Source: Collimonas humicola (GTDB lineage Bacteria > Pseudomonadota > Gammaproteobacteria > Burkholderiales > Burkholderiaceae_D). From it: a stretch of 64,000 nucleotides of DNA. Below, one piece after another: positions 41,794 through 47,275 of the stretch (position 1 is the stretch's first letter; each line of letters starts with the position of its first letter). Below the pieces are notes generated by a model. The model was given only the letters and a program-made list of their open reading frames with translations. It was not told the DNA's origin and made no database searches. Made by a program: the position numbers and the translations under genes. The stretch lies in assembly GCF_018304945.1 (NCBI RefSeq), contig NZ_JAGQEE010000001.1:1798001-1862000 (forward strand), in the 5' to 3' direction.

Positions 41794-42603
41794 ATGCTAG
41801 CGGCAATCAATCTTTCTCTGCAGCGCGGCGACAAAACCATCCTGCGCAATCTGGACCTGCACATCCAGCCGGGTCAGATCGTAGCTTTGCTGGGCCGTAA
41901 CGGCGCCGGCAAAAGCAGCCTGCTGAAAGCCATGTCGGGAGAATTCCACGGCGGGCTGCAAAGCGGCAATGCCCGCTTGAGCGGGCATATATCGATCAAC
42001 CATATCGCCCTCGATCAAATGAACTCGCACCAGCTGGCACAGATCCGGGCGGTGCTGCCGCAAAGCGTGCAGTTTTCCTTCCCCTTCACAGCGATGGAAA
42101 TCGCCTTGCTGGGCCGCTATCCGCATGGCGGCGGTGCGAATGATCGCCTGATTGCGATGGAAGCCCTGGCGCTGGCCGGCGCCGCCGCCCTGGCGGACCG
42201 CGATGTCACCACTCTTTCCGGCGGCGAACTGGCGCGGGTACAGTTCGCTCGCGTGCTGGCGCAGCTGCGGCCGGCCGCTAGCGAACAGGAAACCCTGCCG
42301 GCGGCACGTTACCTGTTGCTGGATGAACCAACCGCCGCGCTGGATCTGGCGCACCAGCATCATCTGCTGCGCACCTTGCGGCAACTGGCCAAGGAATGGC
42401 ATATCGGCGTGCTGGCGATCATGCATGACCCCAACCTGGCGGCGCGCTATGCCGACCAGCTAGCCTGGCTGGCGGACGGCGCCTTGCTGGTGCAGGACAC
42501 CCCGGCGCTGAGCATGACGCCGGATATCGTCAGGACTTGTCTCGGGATTGAGGTGGAAGTGGTGCAGCAGGCCGGCAAGCCGCCGTTTGCGATGCCGGCC
42601 TGA
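41794..42603 (+). CDS. hmuV: Heme ABC transporter ATP-binding protein
   Basis: The ATPase driving heme import. Walker A is GRNGAGKSS (about residues 32-40), the signature is LSGGELARVQFARVL and Walker B with the catalytic Glu is YLLLDEPT; the H-loop is IMHD. Length is 269 residues. It is the last gene of the heme operon; its stop is 3 bp from the stop of the oppositely oriented unknown gene, leaving no room for an intrinsic terminator. Confidence 0.95.
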   Translation: MLAAINLSLQRGDKTILRNLDLHIQPGQIVALLGRNGAGKSSLLKAMSGEFHGGLQSGNARLSGHISINHIALDQMNSHQLAQIRAVLPQSVQFSFPFTAMEIALLGRYPHGGGANDRLIAMEALALAGAAALADRDVTTLSGGELARVQFARVLAQLRPAASEQETLPAARYLLLDEPTAALDLAHQHHLLRTLRQLAKEWHIGVLAIMHDPNLAARYADQLAWLADGALLVQDTPALSMTPDIVRTCLGIEVEVVQQAGKPPFAMPA

Positions 42604-42606
42604 ATC

Positions 42607-43695
42607 TCACTTCAAGTCAGCAGCCGGTTCAGCTTCCGCAAAGCCGGCTTTGAATTTCGGCCAAAACATCTCTCCCCATGCCTTGAGCTTATCGACATAG
42701 GCGACTTTTTCCGGATAGCGACCGATATTGTTCCCACGCCAATCCATGTCGGCATACGACATCACTGTATTGGAAGAAATGCCTTCGGCCTCAGGGCTAA
42801 ACAGATAGTGCACCTCCATGCCGCCCCATTTTGCAAACCGGATGAAATGAACGTCAACCAAGTCTTGCGGGTAAGTTACGCCTTTAGCGGTAAGGTCCCC
42901 CGCAGCAGCGCGGTCGATAACACTGATATTGATGGATCGATCTGCCCACTGCTGCCATGGCGGCGTAAAGTAACTATGAATGAGCCAGCAAGCTTCATTA
43001 TCAAATGGGATCACCTCTTCAATTGAGACGAAATTTCGAGTGGGGTCGGCTTTCGTGCACGACTTCGCTTCATTAAATCCTGCTCCAGGATTATCTTTGC
43101 TCTTCAACACATATCCGCTGAGAGCAGCGACTAGGCGCTTATTTTCTATTTTCCCAAAGAAAAATCCGTTTCCCGTTGCGGTAGGCACTTTTATGCCAAT
43201 AGCCGCAAGTCGAACCCAATTACCTGGGGGAAGCGGAAGCTTGAATCCATCAATCTGAATCGATCCGCTGTAGAGACGTCCCATGGTTGCATTGTTGATG
43301 CCGCTGCTGCCATCCGACTTGGCGTCGGTAGTCACCATCGACACACTTGCCGTCTTTGGCATCGCAGCGGCCGCGGCAACATCGACTGCCGGTTTGGAAT
43401 GTGCTGCCACTGCACTACCGGTTACTGGCGTGGCCGGACCTGCCTGATTTTTTGCGGCTACTACCGGTGTCTTAGGTAAAGGCAATACCGGCAACACCGT
43501 TTTCTGTGAAAGATAGTCAGCCGTATTTTTTACCGTATTAGCGGGCTTCTGCTTTCCATCCAGAGGTTGTGGCGGATAGAGCACAAACAGCATTGTCAGC
43601 AGCAGTGCTGACATGACGGCGAGCCGCCACAGCGGCGCCCTCAACCACAGCGTTCTGAACGTAGCCCACATGCCGGACGACGATGCGGCCTTCAT
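42607..43695 (-). CDS. Unknown single-pass membrane protein, third gene of AAA+ operon
   Basis: I do not recognise this 362-residue protein. A basic N-terminus precedes one transmembrane segment at about 21-40, predicting the rest in the periplasm. Residues 45-135 are a Pro/Ala/Val-rich linker; 140-355 form a compact domain starting GSIQIDGFKLPLPPGNWVRL, with two cysteines (213, 236) that could form a disulfide, and Trp-rich segments (CWLIHSYFTPPWQQW). Its ATG overlaps the AAA+ ATPase stop (ATGA). A by-eye count of one line (43081-43140) gives 50% G+C, below the heme genes. Confidence 0.75.
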   Translation of the reverse strand: MKAASSSGMWATFRTLWLRAPLWRLAVMSALLLTMLFVLYPPQPLDGKQKPANTVKNTADYLSQKTVLPVLPLPKTPVVAAKNQAGPATPVTGSAVAAHSKPAVDVAAAAAMPKTASVSMVTTDAKSDGSSGINNATMGRLYSGSIQIDGFKLPLPPGNWVRLAAIGIKVPTATGNGFFFGKIENKRLVAALSGYVLKSKDNPGAGFNEAKSCTKADPTRNFVSIEEVIPFDNEACWLIHSYFTPPWQQWADRSINISVIDRAAAGDLTAKGVTYPQDLVDVHFIRFAKWGGMEVHYLFSPEAEGISSNTVMSYADMDWRGNNIGRYPEKVAYVDKLKAWGEMFWPKFKAGFAEAEPAADLK

Positions 43696-44945
43696 TTTTC
43701 CGGCTTCGCGATCACGGTATCTCCATCGGTATAAAGCGATACCTTTGTGTAGCCCTTCTGTTTCGCATCGATCAGCGAATCTGAAATCGATTCTTCGATG
43801 GATCGCGCCAGATCGCGCGAAGAAGCGCCTTTCCCAAGTCTGTCGTGGCGACGCATCATATCTATCAGCACGTCGGGATCGATGCCGCCGGTGCTTACGT
43901 CCAGCTCATAATTCTTGATCATCGCTTCGATTTCCAGTGCTGTCACACGCGCGATGTCCAAACCTGAAAGCGCCTTGAAATTAAAGATGCGGTCAATCCG
44001 ATTCAGCACTTCCGTGGCAAATCCCGCTTCCTTCAGCACATTGGTCGAGCTTCGGCGCAGTTCATCCGGATTGTTTGCGTAGGTCACGCTTAGTGCTTGC
44101 ATGGCGTCAGTCGCCGCATTGGTTGTCATGATGAAAATGGCATTGGTCGTGGAAATCTGCTTGCCATCCGACGCCTCTGTCACGAAGCCGTCATTCCATG
44201 CGGTCAGAAAATTTTTGTGGATATCGGGATGGGCCTTTTCGATCTCGTCCAGCAATACGACTGCCTCTGGAGCATCGCGCAATCCCGCCGTCAGCTTGCC
44301 GTAGGTATCCGATCCGACATAGCCTTTGGACGACCCGAACAACTGGCTGGCACCGTGGCCGCCGCTGGAAAACTGCGTCATATCGAAATGCAGCAATTTG
44401 CGCTGCAATTGAACGCTGAGGCATTTAGCCAGATAAGTCTTGCCGGTTCCCGGCGGCCCCGCCAGCATGAAGACGCCAACCGGCTTGCCGCGCTGCTTGA
44501 GCGCAAGCCGGCGCCGGATCTGCGCTGCCATGTCGTCGCACACCGTATCTTGGCCGATCACTTTACTCTTGAGTTCTTGCGCCAGCTGTTCAGCATCAAT
44601 GAAGATCGCAGATGGTTCACTCGCCAATTTTTCTTCGAGAATACGACGATTACTCAAGCGGTCCAGTATGTCCATCATCCAGCCTCTTCCTTCAAGTTTG
44701 CCGCCACTCGAGCGTTCCCGCTCATAAAAATAACCTAAGAATGCAATCGCCCAGGCAAGTATCGCCAAACCGAGGGTAATCCATCCATACGCATGCAAAA
44801 AAACAGCCACGTTGTGGAAATAAGTGCCCATGTCGCTGCCATTTGGGCCGTGCTGCGACCAGAACTGGGCAATCGCAATCCCCGCCATCAGCAAAAAGGC
44901 AACGGGCATCCATTTGTTCGCGGTCGTCAATAGCCAGCGCATCAA
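43692..44945 (-). CDS. Membrane-anchored ClpA/ClpB-D2-type AAA+ ATPase
   Basis: A 417-residue single-ring AAA+ protein. Two N-terminal membrane segments (about 12-29 and 53-72) put the ATPase in the cytosol. Then come Walker A GPPGTGKT (163-170), a pore loop GYVG (208-211) with the threading tyrosine, Walker B VVLLDE (229-234) followed by IEKAHPD as in Clp D2 domains, sensor 1 Asn276 and a likely arginine finger Arg316 (LNRIDRI). The usual sensor-2 GAR is altered to GASSRD (373-378). Clp N-domain, D1 ring and ClpP-docking loop are not seen. Coupled by ATGA at both ends; the substrate is unknown. Confidence 0.85.
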   Translation of the reverse strand: MMRWLLTTANKWMPVAFLLMAGIAIAQFWSQHGPNGSDMGTYFHNVAVFLHAYGWITLGLAILAWAIAFLGYFYERERSSGGKLEGRGWMMDILDRLSNRRILEEKLASEPSAIFIDAEQLAQELKSKVIGQDTVCDDMAAQIRRRLALKQRGKPVGVFMLAGPPGTGKTYLAKCLSVQLQRKLLHFDMTQFSSGGHGASQLFGSSKGYVGSDTYGKLTAGLRDAPEAVVLLDEIEKAHPDIHKNFLTAWNDGFVTEASDGKQISTTNAIFIMTTNAATDAMQALSVTYANNPDELRRSSTNVLKEAGFATEVLNRIDRIFNFKALSGLDIARVTALEIEAMIKNYELDVSTGGIDPDVLIDMMRRHDRLGKGASSRDLARSIEESISDSLIDAKQKGYTKVSLYTDGDTVIAKPEK

Positions 44946-45667
44946 TCGACCTTCACTTTCAAGCCCAGGGTCTGGCCAACGCTCATGACTGGAAATACAG
45001 CCTGCGCAGCACCCGAGCCCAGGCCGACTGTAATGCCGCCGCCCTCTCCATCCAGCACACCGGTCACCTGGATCACGCCGTCGACCGGAACGGGCACCGC
45101 AAAGGTCTGCGGCTTGGTCGTCAATGTAACTGTGCGCGAGTAGCCGCGGCTATCGATGCGCACCACGTCGCCGTCCTCTACATCGGTGTCCCAAAGAGTG
45201 ATCCAGGCGAGTTGAACGGGTGCTGATTTAGTTGGTTTCAAGGCAGGCTGGACTGCAACAGCAGCGCTGTGCTGAGGCGCTTGCTGCGGAACAGGGGCAG
45301 CTGCCGGCTCCGTTTCAGGCGGCAGCAGATCCTTTGCCAGAGCTTCTTTGGCCGAGGGAGAAAGCTGCATGCCATCTAATGCGATCGCGCTATCGTGATC
45401 ACTTACCAACAACAGCCGCATAGACGACAGCGTGGCAAATGCCTGGCTGCGGGCCTGCCGGTCAGAATCGCTGAGATTGTCGGCTGAATGAATGTGTCGC
45501 CAAAAATCCGCGCCAGTCGTTAAAGCGGCAATCCCGGAGATGGCGGCAACGATCACGATAGTCGCGACCAAAGACTTCCCTATGACGGGCCTCAACGAGA
45601 ATCGCCTGTCCTTTTTAGGCGTCGGCGTCAGCGGTAATGGAAACACCCGCTTGTCAAGCTCATCCAT
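44942..45667 (-). CDS. Unknown single-pass membrane protein, first gene of AAA+ operon
   Basis: I do not recognise this 241-residue protein. A basic N-terminus (KKDRRF) precedes one membrane segment at about 28-50, so the C-terminal part should be periplasmic. It has a helical section (55-115), a Pro/Ala/Gln linker (118-150) and a beta-rich C-terminal domain (152-241; VQLAWITLWDTDVEDGDVVR, then Gly-rich repeats). Its stop overlaps the ATPase start (ATGA). The architecture mirrors the third gene: anchor, flexible linker, folded C-terminal domain. Confidence 0.75.
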   Translation of the reverse strand: MDELDKRVFPLPLTPTPKKDRRFSLRPVIGKSLVATIVIVAAISGIAALTTGADFWRHIHSADNLSDSDRQARSQAFATLSSMRLLLVSDHDSAIALDGMQLSPSAKEALAKDLLPPETEPAAAPVPQQAPQHSAAVAVQPALKPTKSAPVQLAWITLWDTDVEDGDVVRIDSRGYSRTVTLTTKPQTFAVPVPVDGVIQVTGVLDGEGGGITVGLGSGAAQAVFPVMSVGQTLGLKVKVD

Positions 45668-45799: not shown

Positions 45800-47275
45800 T
45801 CAGCTTTCATCCTCGCCTAACAGATCCGGCTCTTTCCCCAGCAACCGCTGCGCCGCTTCGCTCGGCAAAGCCTCTACCGATTTCAGCTTGCGCGCCATCT
45901 GGCGGCTGCGCACTTCGGCCTGGTCGATGTTCTTGGCGGCGCGTTCCAGCGTCAGCTTGGTGGCGGCCAGCACATCGCCGAACTTGCCGAATTCTGTCTT
46001 GACTGCGCCCAGCACTTGCCACACTTCCGACGATCGCTTTTCCAGCGCCAGCGTGCGGAAGCCCATCTGCAGGCTGTTCAGCAGCGCCGACAAGGTAGAC
46101 GGTCCGGCGATGCTGATGCGGTGCAGGCGCTGCAACTCGTCGGCCAGGCCCGGGCGGCGCATGACCTCGGCATACAGGCCTTCGGTCGGCAGGAACAGGA
46201 TGGCGAAATCGGTGGTCAGCGGCGGCGACAGGTATTTCTCGGCGATGGTCTTGGCCTCAAGGCGCACTGCCCGCTCCAGTTCCCGCGAAGCCAGCGCAAC
46301 GCCTTCGGCATCGGCGCGGTCGGCGGCATCCGCCAGTCGTTCATACTGTTCCTTCGGGAATTTAGCGTCGATCGGCATCCATACCGGCGTGCCGCCGTCG
46401 TCATTGCCCGGCAGCTTGATGGCGAACTCGACCCGCTCGCCGCTGCCGGGAACTGTTTCCACGTTCTTGGCGTACTGCTCCGGCGTCAGCACCTGTTCCA
46501 GCAGCATTTCCAGCTGCACTTCGCCCCAGGTGCCGCGCGTCTTGACATTGGTCAGCACGCGCTTGAGATCGCCGACGCCGATCGCCAGCTGCTGCATTTC
46601 ACCCAGGCCCTGGTGCACTTTTTCCAGGCGGTCGGAGACGATCTTGAACGATTCGCCCAGGCGCTGTTCCAGCGTCGCATGCAATTTCTCATCGACGGTC
46701 TTGCGCATTTCTTCCAGCCGCAAGCCATTGTCGGTTTGCAGGTCCTTGATCCTGGCTTCCAGCGTGGTGCGCACTTCGGCCATGCGCTGCGCATTCGATT
46801 CGGTCAGCGCCGCCAGCGTCTGGTTGAGGGTGTCGCCGAAGCGCTTGAGCGACTGCGCCTGCTCTTCGCGGCTGGTCTGGGCCTGCTGGTTCATCGCCAG
46901 CCGCATGCCGTCGAGCTGCTGGGCGTTGGTCTCGGTGAGCTTGACCAGCTGCTGTGCGAAGGTGTCGATCTGGTTGTTCTGCAAAGTGGCGACGCTGGTC
47001 ATCTGCGCCGCCAGCGTTTGCTGCAGCTGGCCGAAGTTGTTGCCGATTTCCTGCCGCATGTTTTGCGCGCTGCCCTGCACTTCACCGCGCAGGTCGCGCT
47101 GCTGGCGTTCGCCGCGATCTTGCTGATCTTGCTGATGGCGTTGCAGATCGTTCTGCAGCTGCGCCAGCTGCTGCGCCGGATCGGCGCCGCGCGCGCTGCG
47201 CAGGATGGCGACGATCTGCAGCACGATGATGACGGCGGCAACCGCAAGTAGGACGAGTAATTCTGATGAGGGCAT
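45800..47275 (-). CDS. rmuC: DNA recombination protein RmuC
   Basis: RmuC is a putative nuclease-fold protein that limits DNA inversions at short inverted repeats in E. coli. The 491-residue protein has an N-terminal hydrophobic segment (about 5-25), a long Gln-rich coiled coil (about 35-175) and the RmuC domain (TRGTWGEVQLEMLLEQVL, WMPIDAKFPKEQYERL, FLPTEGLYAEVM). It lies 132 bp upstream of the AAA+ operon on the same strand and follows the truncated hemoglobin gene. Confidence 0.93.
   Translation of the reverse strand: MPSSELLVLLAVAAVIIVLQIVAILRSARGADPAQQLAQLQNDLQRHQQDQQDRGERQQRDLRGEVQGSAQNMRQEIGNNFGQLQQTLAAQMTSVATLQNNQIDTFAQQLVKLTETNAQQLDGMRLAMNQQAQTSREEQAQSLKRFGDTLNQTLAALTESNAQRMAEVRTTLEARIKDLQTDNGLRLEEMRKTVDEKLHATLEQRLGESFKIVSDRLEKVHQGLGEMQQLAIGVGDLKRVLTNVKTRGTWGEVQLEMLLEQVLTPEQYAKNVETVPGSGERVEFAIKLPGNDDGGTPVWMPIDAKFPKEQYERLADAADRADAEGVALASRELERAVRLEAKTIAEKYLSPPLTTDFAILFLPTEGLYAEVMRRPGLADELQRLHRISIAGPSTLSALLNSLQMGFRTLALEKRSSEVWQVLGAVKTEFGKFGDVLAATKLTLERAAKNIDQAEVRSRQMARKLKSVEALPSEAAQRLLGKEPDLLGEDES

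Follow-up and report, generated by a model that had tools for sequence, protein, structure and literature searches.

Torsins, which work with the single-pass membrane partners LAP1/LULL1, are Clp-like single rings that are located in the lumen and require arginine fingers from their partner. Msp1 belongs to the classic AAA proteins and has a single transmembrane (TM) helix, and ExeA, the ATPase of the ExeA-ExeB (GspA-GspB) pair, carries a peptidoglycan-binding part. Msp1/ATAD1 is described as a membrane-anchored, single-ring AAA+ extractase without a protease (PMC12793716), and ExeA-ExeB as an inner-membrane ATPase with a partner that has a periplasmic domain (PMC4098917, PMC9239104). Here, we analysed an operon of three genes, P1, the ATPase and P3, in a 64,000-nucleotide stretch of the Collimonas humicola genome (assembly GCF_018304945.1, contig NZ_JAGQEE010000001.1; hereafter the window), the motor of which belongs to the type of the D2 ring of the HSP100 proteins ClpA, ClpB and ClpE. 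The unit is real, recurs in other bacteria and is an insertion in this genome, and its constant part is the ATPase together with a short N-terminal tag of P3, LWxx(A/S)xxWR, with the P3 exodomain being exchangeable. Our preferred reading, to which we assign a probability of roughly 45%, is that the operon encodes a horizontally transferred inner-membrane AAA+ module that is free of a protease and directed by its partners.

The motor and its predicted membrane anchoring

The best Pfam match of the ATPase was AAA_2 (2.3e-33, 116 bits); the classic AAA family PF00004 also passed its cut-off (44.1 vs 21.2 bits), as did AAA_5 and Sigma54_activat, but PF00004 scored far below AAA_2. The NCBIfam family TIGR02639 (ClpA) aligned over its positions 449-718, i.e., only D2, the best PDB profile matches were the D2 regions of ClpE and ClpB, and no profile match to an N-domain or a D1 ring was found in the ATPase, where hydrophobic segments occupy their place. 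An alignment of 24 ATPases, comprising the window copy, 22 relatives found in a collection of 84,980 species using six ATPase peptides and a copy from a Microvirga plasmid, showed that Walker A, the pore GY, Walker B, sensor 1, the arginine finger R315 and sensor 2 R376 were intact in every sequence. As the loci were picked by ATPase peptides, these and the following counts describe that sample only. The ClpP-docking IGF/IGL loop was absent between sensor 1 and the arginine finger in all 24; in the same region, two ClpA-like controls (L029, L030) had IGF and two ClpB-like controls (L032, L033) lacked it, as expected, and the two chance VGF matches among the 24 ATPases adjoin the arginine finger rather than the ClpP-loop site. 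Judged by these motifs, no residue that a working Clp-D2 ring needs is missing from the motor, which is predicted to lie in the membrane.

The ATPase shares AAA_2 and the motifs listed above with ClpA, ClpB and ClpE, but differs from them in having N-terminal TM helices and no match to the N-domain or D1, in lacking the ClpP loop and in forming a separate tree group. In a quick, midpoint-rooted tree of 56 tips, which also held seven Clp proteins from its own genome and from a genome with a lone P1-like protein (G049), 24 viral relatives and a Methylorubrum protein, the 24 ATPases formed one group with a node value of only 0.55, and the Methylorubrum protein was its neighbour. Compared with Msp1/ATAD1, the ATPase is likewise a single ring without a protease, but it is of the Clp-D2 type, has two TM segments and is accompanied by operon partners. 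The sequence-only reading that preceded this study had described the Clp-D2 type without an N-domain or D1, the intact pore tyrosine, Walker A/B, sensor 1 and arginine finger, and the missing ClpP-docking loop, all of which were borne out. Its loose analogy with torsins finds an echo in a weak profile match, but at 25.7 bits this lies under the cut-off of 27, and the ATPase is predicted to be cytosolic and has its own arginine finger. Its statement that there is no protease agrees with the lack of a recurrent protease gene beside the operon, with peptidase families occurring among the flanking open reading frames (ORFs; S9 in 3/115 and S46 in 1/115).

TM segments were called using a crude hydropathy cut-off. 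Both N-terminal segments were found in 17 of the 24 ATPases and only one in the remaining seven, including the window copy, in which TM1 fell under the cut-off; the two membrane anchors that had been claimed are thus seen in most of the homologues and only partly in the window. The net charge is positive ahead of TM1 in all 24 sequences and past TM2 in 19 (neutral in four, negative in one), and because these charges are mostly positive, the topology fits N-in/C-in. Behind TM2 lies a juxtamembrane motif, MDILDRLxN, whose residues D91, L93 and R95 are invariant (24/24) and which may be the helix onto which a partner docks. P1 has one TM segment in 18/18 homologues, with the N-side being more positive in 17 of them and one tie, and P3 has an N-terminal segment in 16/19 (none in L017 and L026, and only elsewhere in L023). 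The charge rule and the conserved cysteine pair of P3 would place the C-terminal domains in the periplasm, as had been predicted for both proteins; the charge signal is plain in P1 but weaker in P3.

Recurrence of the operon and exchange of the partners

The carriers include Dyella, Burkholderia, Paraburkholderia, Trinickia, a Ralstonia metagenome-assembled genome (MAG), Pseudomonas, Methylomonas, Acetobacter and Lichenicoccus as well as MAGs of Rhodocyclales, Xanthobacteraceae, Gammaproteobacteria and Acidobacteriaceae. The order P1-ATPase-P3, whose recurrence had been suggested as a check, was recognisable in 18/24 loci, window included, with P1 homologues in 17 loci other than the window; two further loci (L018, L021) have a divergent protein in the P1 position, as seen by eye. 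The inter-locus distances of the three proteins were correlated (r 0.93-0.95 for 18 loci and 0.82-0.84 for the 14 close ones), which none of 2000 permutations reached. In the whole-genome samples taken from the order, family and class of the host, the operon is rare: the ATPase had no match at E 1e-55 in the 398 other genomes of the order (399 searched), P3 had none in the 244 others of the family (245 searched), and a P1 profile run against 369 genomes of the class found only the own genome and one lone P1-like protein.

All six frames of 1.33 Mb of DNA, made up of the window and 133 loci (134 sequences, some of them duplicates), were scanned for [LI]W.{1,2}[AS].{1,2}WR. In 23/24 loci, the tag was present immediately behind the ATPase, with a hydrophobic segment following it, and the remaining locus (L018) has the variant LRHRAPLWR, recognised by eye. 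The five other matches were short or had no hydrophobic follow-on. Moreover, five of the nine invariant columns of P3 fall within the first 24 residues (hypergeometric 9e-5). Because the tag is constant directly after the ATPase and the invariant columns cluster at the N-terminus, we read it as a docking tag by which P3 probably binds the ATPase. The part behind it varies: beyond the tag, the proteins of L020, L022 and L025 did not resemble P3 at E 1e-3, L020 has two tagged copies and L022 three, an additional stretch precedes the common P3 domain in Methylomonas and the Rhodocyclales MAG and follows it in the Ralstonia MAG, and the Microvirga partner ORF stops shortly past the TM helix.

P1 and P3, which the earlier reading had not recognised, could not be assigned to a known family; no curated family in Pfam or NCBIfam reached its cut-off, PADLOC gave nothing at E 0.1, and no hit of a PDB sequence search was better than E 0.6 (P1) or E 1 (P3). 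AlphaFold2 models had a mean predicted local distance difference test (pLDDT) score of 82 for P1 and 77 for P3, for which 18 homologues were available. In P1, the helical module behind the TM helix is followed by a variable Pro/Ala linker and a beta-sandwich with an invariant WD....DGD and more conserved Asp/Gly positions. The P3 exodomain was compared with the PknH extracellular domain/PsbP/Mog1 fold (3-13% identity, root-mean-square deviation 3.6-4.6 A; Foldseek not significant). For the P1 beta-sandwich, CBM60/C2-type domains were considered as a possible fold.

The most economical mechanism would be a protease-free membrane unfoldase or extractase whose target is set by the periplasmic domain of a docked partner. 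Two TM helices would anchor the ATPase so that its Clp-D2-type ring lies on the cytosolic side, where a predicted hexamer would thread polypeptides via the GY pore loop and, with no protease, may unfold, extract or remodel membrane- or envelope-bound proteins. P3 would dock by its tag and TM helix, probably onto the TM/juxtamembrane region of the ATPase (MDILDRLTN in the window), and its periplasmic domain, past a flexible linker, may bind or sense something, so that an exchange or duplication of the exodomain would retarget the machine; P1, where present, may contribute a second periplasmic module. Such sensor or adaptor roles, a trans-envelope function, a substrate and a trigger are conceivable from this layout.

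The conserved P3 tail can also be read in another way, namely that P1 and P3 are dedicated substrates that an Msp1-like or protease-free FtsH-like ATPase pulls from the membrane, thereby removing a displayed exodomain on demand. A short conserved tail beside a TM helix could be a recognition signal and the pore loop is kept, but the tail, counted through the last tag residue, has only about 15-35 residues, part of which is predicted to be helical next to the membrane in the window copy, and this is short for pore engagement. A partner that is kept in 24/24 loci would fit a subunit as well, and we consider the substrate explanation unlikely.

Several observations weigh against the partner-directed module that we prefer, or at least against its being a fixed three-part machine. 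Although the ATPase is followed by a tagged partner in all 24 loci and P1 or a P1-position protein precedes it in 20, no P1 was seen in L020, L022, L025 and L004 (4/24), and because of this and of the exchangeable exodomain the trio is not fixed; the dedicated three-part system that had been proposed therefore holds only in part. In this sample, however, the ATPase did not occur mostly without partners, and the partners did not fall into known families. The N-side of P3 was more positive in only 11/16 cases, with one tie and four contrary, which slightly weakens the argument for its topology but not the preferred reading as such. Among the flanking ORFs, no Pfam family was found in more than three of 115 at E 1e-10, and they gave no functional clue. 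Furthermore, on the Methylorubrum plasmid pB146-2 (L036:4396-5978; NZ_CP088249.1 7215-8797), a P1 homologue, 51% identical in its C-terminal domain, overlaps a distant ATPase relative with 32% identity, one apparent TM helix, a lost pore GY and an altered Walker A, and a scan of 10.8 kb around the pair found no tagged partner; hence, the wider group has members that are unlikely to thread polypeptides and do without P3. The pair lies near MobQ and coupling-protein genes, and PLSDB types the plasmid as non-mobilizable.

Only tentatively would we suggest that these operons might represent a new class of modular membrane machine, in which a constant Clp-D2 motor gains new periplasmic targets by the swap or duplication of tagged single-pass partners and spreads horizontally. 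No description of such a system was found in the open-access part of the PMC literature, which is not proof of its absence. If true, an inner-membrane Clp-type unfoldase would be aimed by interchangeable periplasmic modules via one short tag, the uses of HSP100-type motors would extend beyond ClpP delivery, disaggregation and the recycling of the type VI secretion system, and there would be a simple genetic system for cytosolic ATP hydrolysis acting on the envelope, with the tag being directly testable as a docking signal.

Two tagged loci are worth mentioning for their structure. L022 (3735-5571) lies behind genes for pheT, an HU/IHF-type and a MerR-type protein, and its ATPase is followed by a tandem array of three tagged proteins whose exodomain is of a second type. 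In Pseudomonas sp. TH31 (L009:9248-10236), P3 is split over two reading frames, by either a frameshift or a sequencing error.

Insertion and genomic surroundings

A search with RmuC covered 15 genomes of the genus; one of them is the own genome and another had no match, which left 13 congener loci for comparison. In 9/13, the ABC-ATPase gene lies about 20-200 bp from rmuC with no operon between them, and in three there was no match to the ABC gene within the flank. The congeners with a directly adjacent pair indicate that the operon is a 3.1-kb insertion, and because the last one (L121) carries at this site another insert, of about 0.9 kb and by eye a small toxin-antitoxin pair, the slot is variable. 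The G+C content of the operon is 54.4% compared with 60.1% for the window (1/122 overlapping 3-kb windows was as low), which confirms the lower G+C that had been claimed; the claimed accessory origin is supported by these values and by the congeners without the operon.

A phage origin was rejected: the best 80 of 473 IMG/VR segments were 30-41% identical, started at residue 90 at the earliest and did not include the membrane part, and 0/147 phage records covered 80% of the ATPase query. A plasmid origin was also dropped, as 1/2226 plasmids was found by coverage (Microvirga), with the distant Methylorubrum plasmid lower down the list. A defence island was not supported either; 115 of the 119 listed flanking ORFs were scanned, and the PADLOC matches among the 25 of 38 families listed were few and generic (mad3 in three ORFs, WYL and mad2 in two each, and the others in one). 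These matches bear on the idea of a conflict or immunity system, in which exchangeable periplasmic domains would bind toxins or phage parts and the motor would clear them. The ATPase does match the PADLOC profile DolB (78 bits over the AAA region) of the Dodola system, in which DolB has a DolA partner, but this and the immunity matches are only at the level of AAA or fold, and we regard such a system as highly improbable.

The surroundings also touch on an ExeA-ExeB-like device, in which the motor and the proteins with Pro-rich linkers would open or scaffold the envelope for an outer-membrane or secretion structure. The general plan is alike, L010 follows a peptidase-ABC/HlyD pair at a distance of 109 bp, 3/115 flanking ORFs have matches to HlyD families, and in the Xanthobacteraceae MAG (L025:10678-12568) a curlin-like repeat ORF (by eye) lies about 0.9 kb downstream, followed by csgF and csgG. 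The ATPase, however, is of another class than ExeA, with its AAA part predicted to be cytosolic, AAA_22 under its cut-off (25.3 bits; cut-off 27) and no peptidoglycan-binding family among the best 25 of 34 Pfam matches listed, and type II secretion system genes were not noticed near the operon, although they were not searched for by name. CsgG/CsgF relatives were found at no other compared locus, so a curli link was dropped, and we consider an ExeA-ExeB-like device improbable.

Layout of the operon and minor observations

The coordinates given earlier for the three ORFs, all on the minus strand, proved right (Table 1). The ATGA coupling that had been described on both sides applies to ATPase/P3, which overlap by four bases, but not to P1/ATPase, which overlap by one base (TGATG) when the ATG start of the ATPase is used; a TTG lies one codon before it, at 44945. 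Upstream of the operon lies the rmuC-like gene (45800-47275; Pfam RmuC, 1.6e-75), and on the other side the ABC-ATPase gene (41794-42603), which by eye only is hmuV-like and part of a haemin-transport cluster. Scans for promoters and terminators gave no signal above that of shuffled sequences.

Table 1. Positions of the operon and its features in the window
Feature	Position	Strand	Remarks
Inserted segment	42604..45799	.	between stops of ABC-ATPase gene (ends 42603) and rmuC-like gene; absent in congeners with readable junction
P1	44942..45667	(-)	ORF, 241 aa, single-pass, predicted N-in
P1 TM helix (residues 28-51), positive N-side	45515..45586	(-)	hydropathy, charge, model helix
P1 small helical module after TM (residues 67-114)	45326..45469	(-)	pLDDT mostly 80-97; conserved alignment positions
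P1 C-terminal beta-sandwich (residues 153-240)	44948..45211	(-)	
ATPase	43692..44942	(-)	ORF, 416 aa from ATG; single-ring AAA+, Clp D2 type, predicted membrane-anchored
ATPase TM1 (about residues 11-29)	44856..44912	(-)	from homologues; under cut-off in window copy
ATPase TM2 (residues 54-72)	44727..44783	(-)	hydropathy
ATPase juxtamembrane MDILDRLxN (residues 90-98)	44649..44675	(-)	candidate partner-docking helix
Walker A GPPGTGKT (residues 162-169)	44436..44459	(-)	motif in alignment
Pore loop KGYVGS (residues 206-211)	44310..44327	(-)	GY in 24/24
Walker B VVLLDE (residues 228-233)	44244..44261	(-)	motif in alignment
Arginine finger R315	43998..44000	(-)	invariant, 24/24
P3	42607..43695	(-)	ORF, 362 aa, single-pass, predicted N-in
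P3 N-terminal tag LWLRAPLWR (residues 16-24)	43624..43650	(-)	predicted cytosolic
P3 TM helix (residues 22-40)	43576..43632	(-)	hydropathy; model helix 21-39
P3 disordered Pro/Ala-rich linker (residues 47-127)	43315..43557	(-)	pLDDT <50 nearly throughout; variable in alignment
P3 exodomain (residues 135-354), conserved Cys213/Cys236	42634..43293	(-)	

Matches of P1 to GPHR_N (E 0.019) and XpsH (E 0.053) were dropped, as they were under the cut-offs and centred on the TM helix. The lone P1-like protein of G049 (L002/L005; G049:C1:956568-957206) lies between MscS-like and TIR/FGE-like genes, as judged by eye, and gave no functional clue, and the ATPase search in this genome gave only Clp-like matches. 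Additionally, the Rhodovulum plasmid pRGUI01 (L135:4080-5273) encodes a 397-aa protein with an apparent signal peptide and a P1-type beta domain at its end, which adjoins two more uncharacterised proteins and an RND efflux pair.

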